DNA of 64,000 nt from Flavobacteriales bacterium (GTDB lineage Bacteria; Bacteroidota; Bacteroidia; Flavobacteriales_D; Crocinitomicaceae), in contig VEQH01000001.1 in assembly GCA_018883325.1 (NCBI GenBank), forward strand, positions 62,001 to 126,000. Direction: 5' to 3'. The number at the start of each line of letters is the position of its first letter. Position 1 is the first letter of the stretch. Of the stretch, positions 36,572 through 62,413 are shown piece after piece. The notes beneath the pieces are model-generated. The model did no database searches, had not been told where the DNA came from, and worked only from the letters and a program-made list of their open reading frames with translations. A program made the translations under genes and the position numbers.

Positions 36572-37687
36572 ATGAAATCAATGTTATCAGCGCTCTTTTT
36601 ATTTTTCATAACTGTTGCCCAATCGCAAACCCTTGTCTCGATGAGTCACGACGGATTGTTACGCAACTTTATTTATTACAAACCAAGCACTTGGGAATCT
36701 TCTCAAACCTTACCATTACTTATCGTTTTGCACGGTTTAACTCAAACAGCGACTGGAATAATGGAAATTACTGATTTTAATACAATTGCAGAAGAGAATA
36801 ATTTCATTGTTTGCTATCCATCTGGAATTAATAACGCTTGGAACGCAAACATGAACGTTTCTGTTTCGAGCACGGACGATAAAGGCTTCATTGAAAAAAT
36901 AGTTGCTTATTTCCAATTGAATTTCAACACTGATTCACAAAAGCAATATTTATGTGGATTTTCAAACGGTGGATTTATGAGTCATAAAATGGCTTGTGAA
37001 TCCGAGGAGTGTTTCGCTGCAATCGCAACGGTTTCTGGTAACATGAGTGATACGGTTTACGCAAATTGTAATCCTAAATATTTAACTTCTATTTTACACA
37101 TGCACGGAACTACAGATGCCGTTGTCCCCTACTTAGGAAGCATCACAACTGGAGTTTCTGTTTCCCAAACAATGGATAAATGGCAACAATTTTTAGGTTG
37201 TGATCCGAATCCTAGCTCAATTGATTTACCAAATCCTAACCTTTTGGACTTGTCAACGGTTTCAAGAGAAACATACGCTAACTGCAATAACAGCAGCTTA
37301 GAATTAATAAAAATCGCAAACGGTGGACATCAATGGCCTGGAATTTCAACTTTCGTTGGTGGCGTAGGAAATATTAATATGGATATTTACTCACCACAAG
37401 TAATTTGGGATTTTCTAAATGGAAAATCGTGCCCAAATGCAGGTTTAAACGATTTTAATCTAGGTTCAATTTCTGTATTTCCAAATCCATTTAATTCCGA
37501 AATTACAATCGAAATGAATAAAGAAATTGCTTCAATTGAATTAAAAGATTTGAATGGAAAAACACACTTCTTTACGACCCAAAAACTAGGGAAAATTGAA
37601 ACCGATTTTTTAAATTCAGGTATTTATTTCCTGGAAGTCAAAACTTCAGAAAATCAACTTATCATTAAAAAACTAATCAAACATTAA
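36572..37687 (+). CDS. Secreted PHB-depolymerase/feruloyl-esterase-like hydrolase with T9SS domain
   Basis: A 371-residue protein with a signal peptide (residues 1-18, cleaved after AQSQ). The alpha/beta-hydrolase part (about 25-290) shows LPLLIVLHGLTQTATG, the nucleophile elbow CGFSNGGFMS (Ser131), ILHMHGTTDAVVPY with the catalytic Asp and NGGHQWPG with the catalytic His. This arrangement is that of the LpqC/PHB depolymerase/feruloyl esterase family. The last 80 residues are a T9SS sorting domain (ISVFPNPFNSEITI, ELKDLNGKTH, LNSGIYFLEVKT). It should therefore be an extracellular esterase; polyester and hydroxycinnamate esters are both possible substrates. Its stop overlaps the stop of the opposing gene by 4 bases. 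Confidence 0.88.
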   Translation: MKSMLSALFLFFITVAQSQTLVSMSHDGLLRNFIYYKPSTWESSQTLPLLIVLHGLTQTATGIMEITDFNTIAEENNFIVCYPSGINNAWNANMNVSVSSTDDKGFIEKIVAYFQLNFNTDSQKQYLCGFSNGGFMSHKMACESEECFAAIATVSGNMSDTVYANCNPKYLTSILHMHGTTDAVVPYLGSITTGVSVSQTMDKWQQFLGCDPNPSSIDLPNPNLLDLSTVSRETYANCNNSSLELIKIANGGHQWPGISTFVGGVGNINMDIYSPQVIWDFLNGKSCPNAGLNDFNLGSISVFPNPFNSEITIEMNKEIASIELKDLNGKTHFFTTQKLGKIETDFLNSGIYFLEVKTSENQLIIKKLIKH

Positions 37688-39351
37688 CCCTTTCCTGGCT
37701 TCATCCCACCAATCGAAGGTTTCGAAGGAGAAACGGATGGTCTTGCTGGTGATGATGCAGGTTTAGATGGCGAAGAGGATGGTTTATTAACTGGTGAAGA
37801 GAATACTGGTCTTGAATTTATTACAGGTTTTTCGTTTTGCACAGGTGAAGTTGAACTCGGTTTTTCACGCTGAAAATCAGTATTTATTTCTGGTTTTTTC
37901 TCTGGCGAAGAATTATTTTCATTGAGCACACCTTCTTTGCCATTTTCACCTTTATTAACTGGCTCAAAATCATTTCCTTTTGTTGGTTTTTCTGGCTCTC
38001 TTATTTGTGGATTAAAATCTTTTATTGTGCCGTCAGGATTTGCTTCTCTTGGTGTTGAACCTAAAAGACCACCTTCACCAAAAGTTCTTTCATTCGTGTT
38101 TAGAGCTGGTTTTTTGATGTCGTGCAACAATCTTCCGCGCACTGGATTTGTTGGAGTTGGAATTGGATTCGGCGTAATATCTAAAAATCCATTATCAAAA
38201 ATACAACCGCGCATTTCATCGGCAGTAACTCCCATTTGTTCGCAACGACGACGAGCATTTGATTGACGACCCATATCCAAATCGTTCAAGGTGTAATGCA
38301 CTCGTGGAAAAGAACGGTCGGTAAATGAAAGTGTTGAACGTCCATTTCCGTAGTCAAACAAGGTTGTCAAATCGTTAACTCTCCAATCTTCAGCAAAATC
38401 TTTCGCAAGAAAAGCTAAATATTCTTTTTCAGCAAAATCTGAACCTCTTGACAAAGCAGGATTTCCGAAGGTAGAGAAAGATGCATAGACTGGACGAAAA
38501 CTATTGGTACTTCTCGTGTTGAAATCGTCATTCATATCGCCGTTTGCATTCCCAAGTAAACCTTCAAATTCACCTCTATCACAAGCAAAAATTTGAACCG
38601 TTACATTCGCTAATTGCATACTTCCACTCATTCGACTATCAATGATAACCGTTTCACCTGTTGGCCAGGAAATAATATAATTTCTTCCTTCTAGTCGAAC
38701 TGTTCCTCCTCTAGGTAAAAAATACGTTCTTCCTTGAAGCTGAATTGGTTGACCTTCTAAACGAAATGGAGCGCTGTTGAAATCTGGTTTATCTTCGCCA
38801 TAAAAACAAAGTCGGTCTCCCCCAACATTCATAGCGACAGCGGTATTCAGCGAAAAACTTTCACTTTGTGGTTTTTGTCGCGTTTGCACTTCAAAATGTC
38901 CTTTGTTTGATTTTGACAAAACAAATTCACCTACAGTTTGAAAAGAGTAAGTTGCTTTGTCAAAAGAGTTCAAATGTGGATCACCATAACTTCTTCCTGT
39001 CAAAAGCTCACAAAAGCTATGATTTAAAATCATTTCAATTGGCGCCCAATTTGTTCCACTTGCAGCATTTGGATTGCGACCAATTGTTTGAACGGAAGCT
39101 AACAAATCTCTTCTTCTATCCATTGGTACCATTGTCAACATTTCATAAGGCGTAAACTCTTCTGGAAAAGTTCTATCAGGAATCGCTTCACCTTTTGAAA
39201 TGGCACGAAAAGAATTAGCTAACCATTCCCCTCTTACGGGATCCCAACTTTGCAATTGAGATTTAATACTCGCAAAAGAATCATCCGATTGAGACCAAAA
39301 AGAAAGGCTATAAACAAGAAATACTGCTACAAGATAGAATTGTGATTTCAT
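37684..39351 (-). CDS. Secreted protein with von Willebrand factor type D domain
   Basis: A 555-residue protein from the ATG at 39351, which begins a clear signal peptide (MKSQFYLVAVFLVYSLSFWSQ). A longer frame starts at 39393 in a 4-base overlap with the regulator gene upstream; it adds 14 residues and buries the signal, so it is less likely, though coupling is possible. Residues about 115-300 form a VWD domain: CELLTGRSYGDPHLNSFDKA, TYSFQTVGEFVLSKS, FEVQTRQK and GLLGNANGDMNDDFNTR. A low-complexity Pro/Ser/Lys-rich tail (last 120 residues, with SSPSKPASSPARPSVSPS) follows. There is no T9SS domain. VWD domains usually mediate large extracellular assemblies; the role here is unknown. Confidence 0.8.
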   Translation of the reverse strand: MKSQFYLVAVFLVYSLSFWSQSDDSFASIKSQLQSWDPVRGEWLANSFRAISKGEAIPDRTFPEEFTPYEMLTMVPMDRRRDLLASVQTIGRNPNAASGTNWAPIEMILNHSFCELLTGRSYGDPHLNSFDKATYSFQTVGEFVLSKSNKGHFEVQTRQKPQSESFSLNTAVAMNVGGDRLCFYGEDKPDFNSAPFRLEGQPIQLQGRTYFLPRGGTVRLEGRNYIISWPTGETVIIDSRMSGSMQLANVTVQIFACDRGEFEGLLGNANGDMNDDFNTRSTNSFRPVYASFSTFGNPALSRGSDFAEKEYLAFLAKDFAEDWRVNDLTTLFDYGNGRSTLSFTDRSFPRVHYTLNDLDMGRQSNARRRCEQMGVTADEMRGCIFDNGFLDITPNPIPTPTNPVRGRLLHDIKKPALNTNERTFGEGGLLGSTPREANPDGTIKDFNPQIREPEKPTKGNDFEPVNKGENGKEGVLNENNSSPEKKPEINTDFQREKPSSTSPVQNEKPVINSRPVFSSPVNKPSSSPSKPASSPARPSVSPSKPSIGGMKPGKG

Positions 39352-39389
39352 AAGAAAATTTATTTTTTTGAAACAAAAAACGAGCCAAA

Positions 39390-40058
39390 TCAATCATTGA
39401 ATTTGTAACCAACTCCTTTTACTGTTGTGATATAATGATCACCGATTTTCTCTCGAAGTTTTCTAATGTGAACGTCAATTGTGCGATCTCCAACAATAAT
39501 ATCTGTTCCCCAAACTTTTTCAAGAATTACCTCTCTTTTAAACACAAAATTGGGTTTTGAAACTAACAGCGCCAATAATTCAAATTCTTTTTTGGGAAGT
39601 TGAATTTCTTTACCTTCTTTTTCTACCAAATATTTTTCGCGATTAATCCTTAGTTCGTTGCTGTGTGTCTCTTCAACCGTTTTACGTGTTTCATTTCTAC
39701 GCATTAAAGCATTAATTCTACTTACTAAAACTTTTGGCTTAATTGGTTTAGTAACGTAATCATCACCACCCGATTCTAATCCAGCAATCTGACTGTAATC
39801 CTCACTTCTTGCTGTAAGAAAACAAATTAAAATATCTTTATTTTCAGTTGAAGATTTCAATTGCTCACAAACTTCAATACCATCCATTCCGGGCATCATT
39901 ACATCAAGCAGAATTAAATCTGGTTTTTCTTTCCTAACCTCTTCAAGACATTTAATACCATTCTCAACCGTTCGAATAGAATGATTTTCCTTTTCTAAAT
40001 TATACCTAAGAATTTCTCGAATGTCTTCATCGTCATCAACGATTAAAATAGATGCCAT
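39390..40058 (-). CDS. OmpR/PhoB-family response regulator
   Basis: A 222-residue regulator. The receiver domain (1-120) has the acidic pocket VDDDED, the phospho-acceptor in LILLDVMMPGMDG (Asp52), the Thr in FLTARSED and the Lys in DDYVTKPIKP. The C-terminal winged helix (about 130-222) shows LPKKEFELLALLVSKPNFVFKREVILEKVWG and RTIDVHIRKLREKIG, typical of OmpR-type DNA binding. No histidine kinase gene is adjacent; the next gene downstream on the same strand is the VWD protein, overlapping by 4 bases if the longer start is used. Its kinase must be encoded elsewhere. Confidence 0.93.
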   Translation of the reverse strand: MASILIVDDDEDIREILRYNLEKENHSIRTVENGIKCLEEVRKEKPDLILLDVMMPGMDGIEVCEQLKSSTENKDILICFLTARSEDYSQIAGLESGGDDYVTKPIKPKVLVSRINALMRRNETRKTVEETHSNELRINREKYLVEKEGKEIQLPKKEFELLALLVSKPNFVFKREVILEKVWGTDIIVGDRTIDVHIRKLREKIGDHYITTVKGVGYKFND

Positions 40059-40300
40059 TTCATTACTTTTTAATTTGTATTGTAAAGATAATTGAATCTA
40101 TACAAAGACCAACAAAATAGATTCACGAATTGCTGTGAGCTATGAAGCTAAGGAGTTCTCGAAATGAAATAGAAAAAGACCATTAACAAAACACTGAAAA
40201 CAATTTAGAATTCAAGACTTATCTCAAATTCTAGTTCATCTCATTTCAACCTCAAAAAGGAATATCCCTTGAAAAATTCAAAAAAAATCACAAATAACAT
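40059..40300. other. Intergenic region upstream of the regulator gene
   Basis: No gene is seen in these 242 bases ahead of the response regulator on the minus strand. They are AT-rich, and I see no clear promoter consensus or hairpin apart from the small RNA promoter that begins at 40301. Confidence 0.5.
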
Positions 40301-40328
40301 TTTGATATTTTATTTATACATACATTTG
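40301..40328 (+). promoter_or_regulatory. Promoter (-33 TTTG, -7 TACATTTG) of the small RNA candidate
   Basis: TTTG at 40301-40304 and TACATTTG at 40321-40328 match both halves of the Bacteroidota promoter consensus. The 16-base spacer is slightly short compared with 18 in the tRNA-tuf promoter in this window. Predicted start at about 40335. Confidence 0.6.
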
Positions 40329-40333
40329 TCTCA

Positions 40334-40394
40334 GTAGTAGGTTAGGTTGATTGCCGGGAGCTTTGGACAATGTTCAAGGCTCTCGGTGTTTTTG
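40334..40394 (+). ncRNA. Small non-coding RNA candidate ending in a strong hairpin
   Basis: Directly behind a two-box promoter lies a short region of about 60 bases with no reading frame. It contains a single-stranded G/U-rich part (GTAGTAGGTTAGGTTGATTG) and then a 15-pair hairpin at 40354-40386, with arms CCGGGAGCTTTGGAC and GTTCAAGGCTCTCGG (including G-U pairs) and a 3-base loop. Next comes TG and then five T at 40389-40393. This is a complete transcription unit of promoter, RNA and terminator in a gene-free gap between two response regulators. It may belong to the Flavo-1 RNA class known from Flavobacteria; that match is from memory and untested. The hairpin is more GC-rich than its surroundings. 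Confidence 0.6.
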
Positions 40395-40589
40395 GACGTT
40401 TCGTTTCTTTTTCTAACTAACAAAAGACACAATTCCTTTTATGTCCTTTATTGATTCAACAAAAAAATAATTTCATTCATTTCTCTTTTTGAAATTAATA
40501 ACACACAATTTAAGTGAATCAATTCAAAATAATTAAAGATATTTGGAAAGTTTTGAAAATAGATTACCTTTTTAACTAATGCTCAATCA
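40395..40589. other. Intergenic region upstream of the second regulator gene
   Basis: No gene is seen. A near-consensus -7 box, TACCTTTT, lies about 20 bases ahead of the regulator ATG at 40590, and the rest is AT-rich. Confidence 0.45.
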
Positions 40590-41279
40590 ATGAAAATAAA
40601 AGTGCTTTTGGCTGAAGACGATGTCAATCTAGGTCTTGTTATTTCAGATCAACTTAAATCAGATGGATACGCAGTTAGTCTTTGTTGCGATGGCGTTGAA
40701 GCTTTACAAAGATTTAATTCTGAAGATTACCACTTATGTATTTTTGACGTGATGATGCCCAAAAAAGATGGTTTCACTCTTGCAAAAGACATTCGTAAAA
40801 TGAATGCTGAAATTCCGATTTTATTTTTGACAGCCAAATCAATGACGGAAGACAAGGTTCAAGGATTCAATTCTGGTGGCGATGATTATTTGACAAAACC
40901 TTTTAGTGTTGAAGAACTTCAACTAAGAATAAAAGCTTTATTAAAAAGAGTGAATATAAAAGTTGAAAGTGAAGATGAAAAACAAATTCAGATGGGGATT
41001 TATCTTTTCGATGTTGAAAACTACACACTTAAAAACGGAGACGAAATCAAAACACTCACAAAAAAAGAAGCCCACATTTTAAAAGTTTTATACAAATTCA
41101 AAAACCAAGTAGTTCCAAGAGAAGTTATTCTCAATGCTGTTTGGGGGCAAGACGATTATTTCGTGGGAAGAAGTTTTGATGTTTTTATTACCAAACTTAG
41201 AAAATACTTAAGCTTGGAACCTAATATAAAAATCTCTAACATTCACGGTGTTGGTTTTAAATTTGAAATTAAAGAATGA
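40590..41279 (+). CDS. OmpR-family response regulator
   Basis: A 229-residue regulator. The receiver domain has LLAEDDVNLG, the phospho-acceptor in LCIFDVMMPKKDG (Asp53), the switch Thr in LFLTAKSM and the Lys in DDYLTKPFSVEEL. The winged-helix domain (about 135-229) shows LTKKEAHILKVLYKFKNQVVPREVILNAVWG and RSFDVFITKLRKYL. It is a distinct protein from the regulator at 39390-40058, with only family-level similarity. No kinase gene is adjacent. The end overlaps the tsaB start by 4 bases (ATGA), so the two are translationally coupled. Confidence 0.93.
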   Translation: MKIKVLLAEDDVNLGLVISDQLKSDGYAVSLCCDGVEALQRFNSEDYHLCIFDVMMPKKDGFTLAKDIRKMNAEIPILFLTAKSMTEDKVQGFNSGGDDYLTKPFSVEELQLRIKALLKRVNIKVESEDEKQIQMGIYLFDVENYTLKNGDEIKTLTKKEAHILKVLYKFKNQVVPREVILNAVWGQDDYFVGRSFDVFITKLRKYLSLEPNIKISNIHGVGFKFEIKE

Positions 41280-41944
41280 GTAATTTTTTATTGCACATAG
41301 AAACTTGCACGAAGATGTGTTCGGTTGCTCTTTCAGAAAATGGAAAGCTACTTGACTGTATCGAAAACGATGCCGATAATTATATTCACGGTGAATATTT
41401 AACCGTTTACATTGAAGAGATTTTAGCAAAAAATAAGTTGACTCCGTCTCTACTTTCTGCTGTTTCTTTTTCATCTGGTCCAGGTTCTTACACAGGTTTG
41501 AGAATTGGATTATCAGTAGCCAAAGGATTGTGTTTTGCTCTTTCGATTCCATTAATTTCGGTTTCAACACTTAAAGTCTTAGCTTCTTTAGGAAAAGAAA
41601 AATATCCAGGTTCAACTTTAGTTCCAATGATAGATGCGAGAAGAAATGAAGTTTATTGCGAAATTTTCAACCCAGAACTAAAAAGTATAAAACCTCTTTC
41701 TGCTGACATTTTAGACGAAACAAGCTATCAAAACTTTGAACCTTTTGTTTGTTTTGGTGATGGAGCTGAAAAAATGAGCAATCAATGGGAACATAGAAAA
41801 ATTACGTTTGACACATCGATAAAACTATCTGCAAAAGGTCAAGTCGCTCAAGCTTATGAAAAATTCATTAAAAACGAATTTGAAGATGTTGCTTATTTCA
41901 CTCCTTTGTATCTGAAAGAATTTGTGACTGGCGGAGGAAACTAA
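41276..41944 (+). CDS. tsaB: tRNA threonylcarbamoyladenosine biosynthesis protein TsaB
   Basis: A 222-residue protein of the ASKHA fold. ILHIETCTKMCSVAL-like start (LLHIETCTKMCSVALSENG), then FSSGPGSYTGLRIGLSVAKGLCFAL, the most conserved TsaB block, and MIDARRNEVYCEIF. With TsaD and TsaE it forms the complex that puts threonylcarbamoyl on A37 of ANN-decoding tRNAs; TsaB is the non-catalytic dimerisation partner. It is coupled to a response regulator gene upstream by a 4-base overlap, which is an unusual pairing. The stop lies 4 bases from the convergent stop of the M23 peptidase gene. Confidence 0.93.
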   Translation: MSNFLLHIETCTKMCSVALSENGKLLDCIENDADNYIHGEYLTVYIEEILAKNKLTPSLLSAVSFSSGPGSYTGLRIGLSVAKGLCFALSIPLISVSTLKVLASLGKEKYPGSTLVPMIDARRNEVYCEIFNPELKSIKPLSADILDETSYQNFEPFVCFGDGAEKMSNQWEHRKITFDTSIKLSAKGQVAQAYEKFIKNEFEDVAYFTPLYLKEFVTGGGN

Positions 41945-41948
41945 AAAC

Positions 41949-43643
41949 TTACATTTCACTAAAACACAAACTTGCGCACCAAAAAGTAGTATTTCCACAG
42001 AAATCTGTAACCATTAGTTCTAAATTTTGCTCTGAACGAATAAAAGGATTTCGTCTGAAAACCAATAAATTATTTTTCAAATCAAATTCTATTGGATACC
42101 AAACACCTTCAACAAAAAGATGGTATTCCTTGATTCCAGCTTGAGAATCAGAAATTTTCCACGTTACTTTTTCTTTAACAATTAAAGTATCCGTTTCCTT
42201 AAAATTTGAAACCGAAACCGACGGCGCAATTGTGTCAATTTTCACAGAGAAACTACCCAAATATTTAGACTCAGTATGCAATTGATCTGCTTTGAATTCC
42301 GTTGTTAAAGCATGGTTTCCTTTTGAATTTACATTAATATACTGTTTTTCAATTGGGAAATTTGCCAAAGGTTTAATGCTAACTTTGATTGATTTTTGAA
42401 TCGGAACAGAAGCGTCACCTAGAAGCATTTTATCGAGATTAACAAGCTTTTTAGTTGGTTCGTAAAAAGTAAAAAGTGGGATTTCAAATTTCACCTTTGA
42501 ACTTGAAAAAATATAGCTAGAATCTGGAACAAAGTAATCAGTTCGATTAAAAAACGATGGAATTTGAATTGGGTTTTCTCCATTAATCAATACTTTAAAT
42601 TGATATTCAAACGCATTTTGATTGATATCTTTCAAAACAATCTTTAGTTGAGTCGTATCCTTGATTTTAGGCTGAATTGAACCAATTTCTTCCATTTGGT
42701 AAATTTCCAAAGGATTGTACTTGTTTTTGAAAAGCTTGTAAAACTTCTTGTTATTCGTTTTGTATTCATTGTAATCTATGTGGTTATTGACATAGCGAGC
42801 ATCCTCAAATGAAATACGATTGACTTTCGATTGAAAAACGGTGTCTGCATTGCTTACCAAACTATTTTCATACAAACCAAATGAGCTTCCCGTTTTGCCG
42901 ATTGGATCAAAACCGCTAACAGCAATAGCTAAACTTGCCTTGCTTGGTAAAAAATCGTTTGGCAATACTATCATTTGATTTTGATTAATTACGCCTTTTT
43001 TCGACTTTTCAATCTTTATTAATTTTGATTTTCCAGGAATAACGAAACCATTTTCATCAACTGCATAGATTTTCACTGCATTTAAAACTGGCGCCAAAGT
43101 GTCCAAAACTGAAAAACCATTTTTCAAAGGATTCAAAGCAATCTCGGTTTTTGTATCACGAATTTCAAAATGCAAATGTGGCCCTGTTGAATTTCCACTA
43201 TTTCCAGAATATGCAATTAACTCTCCCTTTTTTACCTTCAATTTATTTGAAGTTAAGCTCAAGTCAATTTCATTTAAAAATTCTTTTTTCTGAATTGGAA
43301 GAATGAAGTCGTTAATTCTTTTAGAAAACACAGAACAATGAGCATAAACAGAAGTCGTTCCATTTAGATGGTCGATATACAAAACCTTTCCGTAACCACT
43401 TGGTGAAATCCGAATACGAGAAATATATCCATCAGCAATGGCATGCATCGAAATTCCCTCCCGTCCATTAGTACGAAAATCGAGTCCCATGTGAAAATGA
43501 TTCGGGCGAATGTCTCCAAAAGTAGCACTTAACTCTAATGGAATACCAAGGGGCGAATGGTATGCGTTATCGACAGAAACAAATTGACCAAAACTGCTAA
43601 AAGAAAGAAAAATGGAGATGAAAAATGAAATGAAATTTCGCAT
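41949..43643 (-). CDS. M23 family metallopeptidase, secreted
   Basis: A 564-residue protein from the ATG at 43643; a TTG two codons upstream lies inside the promoter box and is not a likely start. A signal peptide (residues 1-20, cleaved after FGQ) precedes a LytM/M23 domain with the zinc ligands in HFHMGLDF (His51, Asp55) and GPHLHFEI (His158), and VLYIDHLNGTTSVYAH between them. M23 peptidases cut peptidoglycan cross-bridges or act as amidase activators. Residues about 180-564 are beta-rich, with repeated extended segments, and may form Ig-like modules for substrate or partner binding. The role is probably cell-wall remodelling in the periplasm. Confidence 0.9.
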   Translation of the reverse strand: MRNFISFFISIFLSFSSFGQFVSVDNAYHSPLGIPLELSATFGDIRPNHFHMGLDFRTNGREGISMHAIADGYISRIRISPSGYGKVLYIDHLNGTTSVYAHCSVFSKRINDFILPIQKKEFLNEIDLSLTSNKLKVKKGELIAYSGNSGNSTGPHLHFEIRDTKTEIALNPLKNGFSVLDTLAPVLNAVKIYAVDENGFVIPGKSKLIKIEKSKKGVINQNQMIVLPNDFLPSKASLAIAVSGFDPIGKTGSSFGLYENSLVSNADTVFQSKVNRISFEDARYVNNHIDYNEYKTNNKKFYKLFKNKYNPLEIYQMEEIGSIQPKIKDTTQLKIVLKDINQNAFEYQFKVLINGENPIQIPSFFNRTDYFVPDSSYIFSSSKVKFEIPLFTFYEPTKKLVNLDKMLLGDASVPIQKSIKVSIKPLANFPIEKQYINVNSKGNHALTTEFKADQLHTESKYLGSFSVKIDTIAPSVSVSNFKETDTLIVKEKVTWKISDSQAGIKEYHLFVEGVWYPIEFDLKNNLLVFRRNPFIRSEQNLELMVTDFCGNTTFWCASLCFSEM

Positions 43644-60657: not shown

Positions 60658-60730
60658 CACGGGCGGTAGGGCTCGAACCCACGACCAATGGTTTTGGAAA
60701 CCACCACTCTACCAACTGAGCTACACCCGT
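60658..60730 (-). tRNA. tRNA-Trp (anticodon CCA)
   Basis: The minus strand folds as a full cloverleaf of 73 bases: acceptor ACGGGTG / CGCCCGT, D-arm with AGCTCAGTTGGTAGAG, anticodon loop TTCCAAA reading CCA, and T-arm GGGTTCGAGCCC. The discriminator is G, as expected for tRNA-Trp, and no CCA end is encoded. It lies between tuf and secE. Confidence 0.96.
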
Positions 60731-60787
60731 TTAAAAAGGGGAGTTTGATTAAAAACTCCCCTAGTATTAATTTATGTTTTTTACTTA

Positions 60788-61975
60788 TTATGCTACGATT
60801 TCAGTAACCTGACCAGCACCTACAGTTCTACCACCTTCACGGATAGCGAAACGTAAACCTTTGTCCATTGCTACTGGAACGATCAATTTAACATTGATTG
60901 TAACGTTATCACCTGGCATAACCATTTCACGACCATCAGTTAAAAGGATTTCACCTGTAACGTCAGTTGTACGGAAATAGAATTGAGGACGATATTTGTT
61001 ATGGAATGGTGTGTGACGACCACCTTCTTCTTTTTTCAATACGTAGATCTCAGCTTTAAACTCTTGGTGAGGTTTAACAGATCCTGGTTTACAAATAACC
61101 ATTCCACGTTTGATTTGAGATTTCTCAATACCTCTTAATAATAAACCAACGTTATCACCTGCTTCACCACGGTCAAGGATTTTACGGAACATCTCAACAC
61201 CTGTTACAGTAGAAGTTAATTTCAATTCACCCATTCCTAAGATTTCAACTGGCTCACCTGAATTGATAACACCTGTTTCGATACGTCCTGTTGCTACTGT
61301 ACCACGACCTGTAATCGTAAATACGTCTTCAACTGGCATTAAGAAAGGCTTATCAACATCACGTGGAGGAAGTTCGATATATGTATCAACTGCATCCATT
61401 AAATCTTCAACAGTTTTAACCCATTTTTCTTCACCATTCAATGCTCCTAAAGCAGAACCTTGAATAACTGGAGCGTTGTCACCATCGTAGCTGTAGAAAG
61501 AAAGTAACTCACGTACTTCCATTTCAACTAACTCTAATAACTCAGCGTCATCAACCATATCCACTTTATTCATGAATACAACCAATCTAGGAACACCAAC
61601 TTGTTTTCCTAAAAGGATGTGCTCACGTGTTTGAGGCATTGGTCCATCAGTTGCAGCAACAACCAAAATAGCACCGTCCATTTGAGCAGCACCAGTAACC
61701 ATGTTCTTTACGTAATCCGCGTGACCTGGACAGTCAACGTGTGCGTAATGACGGTTTGCCGTTTCATACTCGATGTGAGATGTGTTAATAGTGATACCAC
61801 GTTCTTTTTCTTCAGGTGCATTGTCAATTGAAGAGAAATCACGAACTTTTGCTAATCCTTTAGAAGCTAATACGCTTGAGATAGCTGCTGTTAACGTAGT
61901 TTTACCGTGGTCAACGTGCCCGATAGTACCAATGTTAACGTGCGGTTTGGAACGGTCAAAATTTTCCTTAGCCAT
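60788..61975 (-). CDS. tuf: Elongation factor Tu
   Basis: A 395-residue GTPase delivering aminoacyl-tRNA to the ribosome. G motifs are GHVDHGKT (19-26), DCPGHADY and NKVD. The switch region reads [16 protein letters not shown], domain 2 begins after [19 protein letters not shown], and domain 3 ends [20 protein letters not shown]. The gene sits between tRNA-Thr(GGT) and tRNA-Trp in the large tRNA-tuf-secE-nusG-rpl-rpo operon. Confidence 0.98.
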
Positions 61976-62054
61976 TTTTGTTATTTGTTACTTAGTTAAT
62001 AATATACTTATTTTATAATAGATCCGATGTTCGGATTTAATCCTTTTTATCTTG

Positions 62055-62126
62055 AGCCAATGACGAGATTTGAACTCGTGGCCTCTTCCTTACCAAGGAA
62101 GCGCTCTACCCCTGAGCTACACCGGC
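62055..62126 (-). tRNA. tRNA-Thr (anticodon GGT)
   Basis: A 72-base cloverleaf on the minus strand: acceptor GCCGGTG / CATTGGC (with G-U pairs), D-arm AGCTCAGGGGTAGAGC, anticodon stem CTTCC/GGAAG with loop TTGGTAA reading GGT, T-arm GAGTTCAAATCTC. It is the last tRNA before tuf. Confidence 0.95.
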
Positions 62127-62156
62127 GCTCAATTTTATTTTTTTTCTTTGAAAGTG

Positions 62157-62229
62157 AGCGGGAGACGAGATTCGAACTCGCGACGTTCAGCTTGGAAGGC
62201 TGACGCTCTACCAACTGAGCTACTCCCGC
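62157..62229 (-). tRNA. tRNA-Gly (anticodon TCC)
   Basis: A 73-base cloverleaf on the minus strand: acceptor GCGGGAG / CTCCCGC, D-arm AGCTCAGTTGGTAGAGC, anticodon stem TCAGC/GCTGA with loop CTTCCAA reading TCC, T-arm GAGTTCGAATCTC, discriminator U. Confidence 0.96.
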
Positions 62230-62246
62230 TTTTTTAAACTTTCCTG

Positions 62247-62328
62247 TGGGGGTGGATGGACTCGAACCAACGATACCTTACGGTGACAGATTTACAGTCT
62301 GCTGCAATAGCCACTATGCGACACCCCC
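62247..62328 (-). tRNA. tRNA-Tyr (anticodon GTA)
   Basis: An 82-base class II cloverleaf on the minus strand: acceptor GGGGGTG / CACCCCC, anticodon stem CAGA/TCTG with loop CTGTAAA reading GTA, a long variable arm (CACCGTAAGGTATCG region) as expected for tRNA-Tyr, T-arm GGTTCGAGTCC, discriminator A. Confidence 0.96.
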
Positions 62329-62339
62329 AACAATTTCCG

Positions 62340-62413
62340 AGCCGATGGAGGGATTCGAACCCCCGACCAGCTGATTACAAATCAGCTGCTCTGGCCAACT
62401 GAGCTACATCGGC
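62340..62413 (-). tRNA. tRNA-Thr (anticodon TGT)
   Basis: A 74-base cloverleaf on the minus strand: acceptor GCCGATG / CATCGGC, D-arm AGCTCAGTTGGCCAGAGC, anticodon stem GCTGA/TCAGC with loop TTTGTAA reading TGT, T-arm GGGTTCGAATCCC. It is the first gene of the operon. Confidence 0.96.

Follow-up and report, generated by a model that had tools for sequence, protein, structure and literature searches.

In the window, by which we mean the whole 64,000-nucleotide stretch of DNA analysed here, two response regulator genes are separated by a gap of 531 bases. On one side lies RR1, a divergent PhoB-like regulator (39390–40058, minus strand; Pfam Response_reg and Trans_reg_C; NCBIfam PhoB 223.7 bits, below the 296.2 cut-off), and on the other RR2, an RprY-like regulator recognized by Pfam (40590–41279, plus strand; NCBIfam RprY 265.4 bits, below the cut-off of 370), with tsaB behind it (41276–41944, plus strand; NCBIfam TIGR03725, 140.3 bits, above the 69.3 cut-off). 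Within the gap, positions 40334–40393 of the plus strand look like a free-standing, non-protein-coding gene for a small RNA (sRNA) of about 60 nt, whose 5′ end would fall within a few bases of 40334. This extent follows the match to our R1 covariance model (G000:C19:102331–102392, equal to window 40331–40392; 63.4 bits, E = 3.5e-11), a model whose alignment includes the window locus itself.

The predicted RNA begins with an unpaired, C-less 5′ tail, GTAGTAGGTTAGGTTGATTG (40334–40353, plus strand), the first 15 bases of which are nearly invariant in relatives. It ends in a terminator hairpin of 17 pairs with a loop of 3 (40352–40388, plus strand), identified by folding, by a terminator scan and by covariation in relatives, and in a TTTTT tract (40389–40393, plus strand). 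The hairpin is the sole terminator-like site on either strand of 39000–42000, where shuffled sequence gave an expectation of 1.4. Folding of 40335–40400 yielded −26.4 kcal/mol, whereas 200 shuffles averaged −13.75 (s.d. 2.69) and none of them was as stable (z = −4.70). Five bases before the tail stands TACATTTG (40321–40328, plus strand), a −7 box of the TAnnTTTG type that is evident both in the sequence and in relatives. Farther upstream on the same strand are TTTG (40301–40304) and an A-tract (40280–40287) that may act as a UP-like element. The first-pass annotation had placed its elements at or near these positions; its T-tract and its unstructured 5′ part stand, as does its hairpin, which it had described as GC-rich with 15 pairs and which has 17, eight of them G–C.

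A blastn search with the 94-base query gave matches in seven of the 60 related genomes searched, one of them being the window's own. As blastn favours close copies, loci were gathered through the neighbouring response regulator instead. Among the best 80 of 580 response regulator matches, the exact 15-mer GTAGTAGGTTAGGTT lay upstream of the regulator on the same strand at 40 loci, a near copy at L069 alone, and neither at the remaining 39. At 25 loci lacking the 15-mer, inspection by eye and by model found no sRNA copy between RR1 and RR2 apart from weak matches such as L060 2909–2954 (hairpin only, 11.9 bits). The database records for L008, L025 and L049 are labelled Chitinophaga pinensis, Actinomyces viscosus and Glaciecola amylolytica, respectively, and these labels look wrong.

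Forty-one of the 48 loci found were aligned with MAFFT (alignment A1), leaving out L004, L005 and L007, which share contigs with L040, L012 and L013, and L008, L011, L017 and L035, which are 98–100% alike to others. In A1 the tail columns show little or no change, and the stem varies in sequence throughout. Double changes were present in 13 of the 13 stem pairs, so that the compensating changes that the first-pass annotation had proposed to look for do occur in relatives, and 97.7% of 520 cells remained paired. The alignment holds 98 double-change cells compared with 27.3 in shuffles, and its covariation score of 0.650 (shuffled, 0.338) was not reached by any of 500 shuffles; pairing fell to 27–58% when the 3′ partners were slid. 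In this pattern the stem is preserved as a structure and the tail as a sequence. The core does vary in places: AGGTT is duplicated in L027, and TTTAGG replaces TTAGG in L189 and L190.

The sRNA is concentrated in one family. Of the 299 order genomes searched, 65 contain the 18-mer GTAGTAGGTTAGGTTGAT, one copy each, all of them in the family of the window, f1 (65 of 117), and the 15-mer was present in 2 of 296 genomes of a phylum sample (the own genome and G601). With the R1 model, 153 of 200 family genomes matched at E ≤ 0.001; at E ≤ 1e-5 the model matched 85 of 117 family genomes and, among 182 genomes of the order that belong elsewhere, only G067 (5.3e-6). Across the phylum sample, 11 of 296 genomes matched at E ≤ 0.001, all except G000, G020 and G601 at 32–40 bits. 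Taishania pollutisoli (L033), a member of Crocinitomicaceae, is a named carrier. G601, from another family of the phylum, contains a full type A copy together with two RRM genes (L119/L206, G601:C120), which would reflect either transfer or a binning error. Seven Flavobacteriaceae-like genomes (f17) gave R1 matches of 33–40 bits, and at L207, L209, L210, L211 and L213 the stretch matching the model lies between a stop codon and a terminator.

Several paralogs occur per genome, and they fall into distinct tail types. At E ≤ 0.05, a threshold at which the weakest matches may be chance, a set of 16 genomes gave 13 matches in G167, 12 in G141, 10 in G138, 9 each in G187 and G202, 7 in G616, 6 in G192, 5 each in G123, G213 and G607, and 1–2 in the six genomes of the window's genus. 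Type A, the type of the window locus, comprises 79 distinct copies; type B (tail GATTTAGGTGGTTAGGTTAGGTTGATTAG) 48; type C (tail CATAAGTAGTAGTAGTTTAGGTT) eight, a ninth, L091, being a type A copy caught by a loose pattern; and types E (tail TTCAGTGAATAGTGGTTAGGTTAGGTT) and F (tail TTTAGTTGTAAAAGGTAGGTTAGGTT) four each. UUAGGUU units are common to the five types. The first 22 bases lack C in 73 of 79 type A copies and the first 29 in 44 of 46 exact type B copies, the copies in both counts being non-independent; the window copy is among the six type A exceptions because its stem begins early. Type B shows the same division of labour between tail and stem: 97.8% of the stem cells are paired, with 158 double-change cells compared with 40.2 in an alignment fitted to the model, and the core GGTTAGGTTGATTA and the apical ACgCcCGT scarcely vary. 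The same terminator loop, nearly invariant in type B, is also frequent among type A copies from other genera than that of the window (alignment A2).

Copies of type B can be clustered and may travel. Four tandem type B genes occupy about 800 bases of L294 (794–1586, G192:C2), and type B is present on two IMG/VR contigs, L340 (5941–5963) and L339 (9328–9350). The former also encodes DNA methylases and two Mu-related proteins, a Mu-type portal and a Mu F-like protein, so its type B sRNA is apparently phage-borne; the latter has a transposase and a methylase next to ordinary metabolic genes. On this sequence comparison, the locus appears to belong to a previously uncatalogued multicopy sRNA family of Crocinitomicaceae, with about a dozen copies per genome at most.

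The promoter box is conserved along with the RNA. Of 68 distinct upstream regions, 64 have TTTG within the 20 bases that precede the tail. When these 64 were aligned on TTTG, an alignment in which the TA column played no part, TA stood at the TAnnTTTG spacing in 64 of 64 rows. Between the box and GTAGTAGG, relatives have 5–9 nt. An exact TAnnTTTG lies within the 25 bases next to the tail in 73 of the 79 distinct copies of type A, compared with 0–4 in each of five 25-base control stretches farther upstream; with one mismatch permitted, the counts were 78 versus 11–24. The second conserved upstream feature of the 64 aligned promoters is an A-tract near −49 (A enriched from −49 to −47). No box at −33 stands out in this profile, and of the two-box promoter first proposed it is therefore the TACATTTG box that is upheld, the TTTG at −33 being present in the window with no conserved counterpart in relatives. 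In type B, 25 of 48 copies have an exact TAnnTTTG and 41 of 48 a box-like word starting at −12, with 0–2 exact boxes in each stretch farther upstream, and all four type F copies have the exact box. Exact TAnnTTTG was found in the last 25 bases of 0 of 8 type C copies (L091 removed) and 0 of 4 type E copies. Type C copies (L199–L201, L257, L265, L322, L331 and L334) carry GTTAGTTTTCATAA directly before the tail in place of TAnnTTTG, possibly a promoter for another sigma factor. Box, tail and stem covariation together support the first-pass reading of a small RNA gene with promoter and terminator, and we regard the locus as almost certainly a real, conserved sRNA gene.

In one genome, G192, the tail has perfect complements that are themselves arranged as genes. 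Five tandem units on G192:C8, two in L341 (715–809 and 1264–1357) and three in L342 (788–882, 1192–1286 and 1567–1666), each consist of TAnnTTTG, AAACAAG, CTAATCAACCTAACCTA, about 20 bases, a second site CTAACCTAACC, and a hairpin followed by TTTTT, for a total of 94–100 nt. They would yield C-rich RNAs in which CTAATCAACCTAACCTA is a 17-nt perfect complement of TAGGTTAGGTTGATTAG. The predicted duplex with the G192 type B sRNA reached −40.4 for five of five units, lower than anything in 100 shuffles per unit, whose minima ran from −34.0 to −38.2. The duplex with the G192 type A sRNA reached −28.2 to −28.8, with 17 bases pairing, a level that shuffled sRNAs also attain (their means run from −24.7 to −26.3 and their minima down to −39.4). 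The five genes are putative sponges for the sRNA tail, a reading that appears strong for type B and that for type A rests on the perfect complement. The complement of TAGGTTAGGTTG was sought in 59 carrier genomes; of the 32 extra matches in five of these (G138, G141, G167, G192 and G202), 27 were sense paralogs, and the other five, all on G192:C8, were the sponge-like genes. No sponge sequence with a box was present beyond G192 in the loci examined. The 17-mer occurred on eight IMG/VR contigs, of which L340 holds a sense type B copy; the other seven have no TAnnTTTG before the complement and score at most 27.2 bits with the R1 model (L348).

These observations allow us to propose how the sRNA would work. 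RNA polymerase would initiate a few bases past TACATTTG and produce a C-less single-stranded tail, GUAGUAGGUUAGGUUGAUUG, before halting at the hairpin some 60 nt on. The tail would then pair with other RNAs in trans, as FopS does with mRNA start regions, complementary sponge RNAs would counter the sRNA where they are present (G192), and an RRM-type RNA-binding protein may participate. Taken as a whole, a stand-alone sRNA gene of a paralogous Crocinitomicaceae family that acts in trans by tail pairing is the reading we judge probable. Action in trans, considered for itself, seems very likely. Base pairing by the tail is somewhat favoured; we would have given it even chances before the sponge-like genes of G192, which raised our estimate and lowered that of a pure protein decoy. 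The pairing of the tail with start regions was no better than that of 30 shuffled tails (309 genes of G138, 311 of G414 and 44 of the window), and its mean was weaker than shuffled in five of six comparisons; this was a weak test with crude gene starts, which drew on the window plus 400 kb each from G138 and G414 and sampled roughly 9% of a single genome. Also against pairing, the sponge-like genes occur in one genome only and the type A duplex stays inside the shuffled range, and the core accepts insertions and repeats, which would be unexpected for a register-sensitive seed. The earlier proposal that the 5′ part is free to pair with targets is thus plausible, with complementary RNAs found in one relative and mRNA targets not found. 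A more elaborate possibility, which we put forward only tentatively, is an RNA-on-RNA layer in which the sRNA tails both pair and load an RRM protein, C-rich tandem sponges soak the sRNAs up at two sites, and copies spread by tandem duplication and Mu-like phages.

CsrB-type RNAs titrate CsrA, and the tail could likewise be a UAG/UUAGG binding array for an RRM-type protein, the sRNAs then being decoys that titrate it. Consistent with this, the unit is kept as its number and spacing vary (GTAGTAGTAATAGTAGTAGG in L188, the AGGTT duplication in L027, TTTAGGTTTAGG in L201), the five tail types, whose 5′ leaders are unlike one another, all contain UUAGG-type units, and the start-region pairing test found no enrichment of mRNA targets. 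The sRNA and RRM_1 (PF00076) also co-occur: among the same 200 family genomes, 147 have both, 6 the sRNA without RRM, 32 RRM without the sRNA and 15 neither (one RRM-negative genome inferred to be G676), giving a Fisher p of 9.5e-7 and, by genus, 16 of 17 versus 2 of 7 (p = 0.003), statistics that ignore kinship. G601, outside the family, carries both. However, the genomes of genus g204 (G608 and G612, 96–97% complete) contain true sRNA copies and no RRM match, and genus g33 has RRM with no sRNA match at E ≤ 0.001. A protein decoy has no need of perfect tail complements such as the G192 genes, and the invariance of the 15-mer exceeds what a loose array requires. We therefore consider a decoy of this kind unlikely, and tail pairing in trans remains the preferred reading.

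The surroundings of the gene bear on whether it could instead act in cis, as a leader (tail plus terminator) that attenuates the response regulator gene behind it. Within the window's genus, several genomes have the tail starting only 72–87 nt before the RR2 start codon, and in two members of that genus that lack the 15-mer (L189 and L190) an altered copy directly precedes RR2, with L191 carrying a more distant version in that place. Yet across loci the distance from tail start to RR2 spans 72–2419 nt, in the window 196 nt separate the T-tract from RR2, and the downstream gene itself varies. In 30 loci chosen by their tails from the 65 18-mer matches, 22 had a divergent RR1 upstream (21 recognized by tblastn, L115 from its reading frame), and the downstream gene was RR2 in 14, LuxE-like in 10, a Na/Pi cotransporter in 1 and, on the opposite strand, GldN in 3 and glutamine synthetase in 1, with L097 ending at a contig edge; for the LuxE-like, GldN, cotransporter and glutamine synthetase genes, one protein each was named by Pfam and the remainder by eye. 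Ten genes flanking paralogs have no family in common. Attenuation in cis is accordingly very improbable to us, and a trans-acting sRNA better suits a gene whose neighbours change.

Other features of the neighbourhood are recorded here for their own sake. At L061 the sRNA is separated from RR2 by a Na/Pi cotransporter with a PhoU domain, and PhoU-type genes are near the sRNA in L112 and L119; a link of the locus to phosphate is only a hint, as RR1 and RR2 score below the curated PhoB and RprY cut-offs. Beside RR1, window positions 37687–39393 (minus strand) encode a 569-residue protein that contains the motif GRSYGDPH and matches no NCBIfam model, and similar proteins adjoin RR1 in L010 and L012.

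The notion that the element is a mere terminator or mRNA 3′ end, its promoter-like box having arisen by chance, has a precedent in the second match of the own genome, L202 (G000:C84:15552–15607, minus strand), where TAGTTAGTAGTAGTAGGTTAGG and a terminator come straight after a stop codon with no box and which reads as a 3′-UTR form, but it is scarcely credible for the window locus, where the upstream gene is divergent, 64 of 68 relatives have the box at a distance of 5–9 nt from the tail and not elsewhere upstream, and UAGG six-mers do not look like a general pre-terminator feature. As a general pre-terminator motif these words gave no clear signal: before 90 terminators of G138, TAGGTT occurred once (0.55 expected) and TTTAGG three times (0.78 expected), and before 44 terminators of G414, TAGGTT occurred once (0.37 expected).

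Last, we compared the free-standing sRNA gene with known RNAs. The first-pass annotation had suggested possible membership of Flavo-1 (RF01705), which an excerpt of PMC2864571 describes as a likely Bacteroidetes RNA that is not cis-regulatory. A cmscan of 40060–40590 at E ≤ 10 gave nine matches, all far below gathering scores and none of them Flavo-1, and the window has no Flavo-1 match at gathering. The Flavo-1 model did match L210 2737–2814 at 80.6 bits as a positive control, and that copy starts with UUUUAGCCCCGAUUG and has a long interrupted stem, the window sRNA differing in both respects. No other Rfam family matched the site, or 20 loci of relatives, at gathering; across the whole window only five tRNAs did, and these form a cluster at 60658–62413 (minus strand). 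The suggestion of a new RNA family should Flavo-1 fail is thus borne out as far as Rfam 15 goes. In the literature search, no paper containing GTAGTAGGTTAGGTT and none on sRNA in Crocinitomicaceae was found, and TTAGGTTAGGTT combined with sRNA gave a single match, on Daphnia telomeres. An extract of the work on Flavobacterium psychrophilum (PMC9723704) describes Rfp18, a candidate trans-acting sRNA with predicted pairing through its third stem-loop; this RNA, conserved in a related genus, is like the window sRNA in being a trans-acting candidate, as far as its description goes.

The nearest analogue appears to be FopS of Bacteroides. According to extracts of its report (PMC11697453), FopS has 14 copies in B. 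thetaiotaomicron, with bands of about 65 and 70 nt, canonical housekeeping (sigma-ABfr) promoters, a conserved single-stranded 5′ stretch, a Rho-independent terminator and one 3′-UTR-derived copy; its sequence occurs in one phage, the RRM-1 protein RbpB binds it, and it represses by pairing near start codons. At gathering score, FopS had no match in 20 loci (17 with members, 3 weak) among 4227 Rfam models, which may not include it. Control by sRNAs in Bacteroidota beyond the gut genera is little charted, and a FopS-like family in environmental Crocinitomicaceae would make 'many short copies' testable as a general strategy of the phylum, with the natural differences among genomes in their tails, numbers of copies, sponge genes and RRM proteins offering ready comparisons. 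Compared by description only, the two families differ in that the present one belongs to a Crocinitomicaceae clade, has several UAG/UUAGG tail types and is met by complementary genes in one genome. Like FopS and GibS of Bacteroides, as those are portrayed in the extracts, it is multicopy, with several paralogs per genome that share an unpaired 5′ part and a terminator, a 3′-UTR copy and an occurrence in phage.
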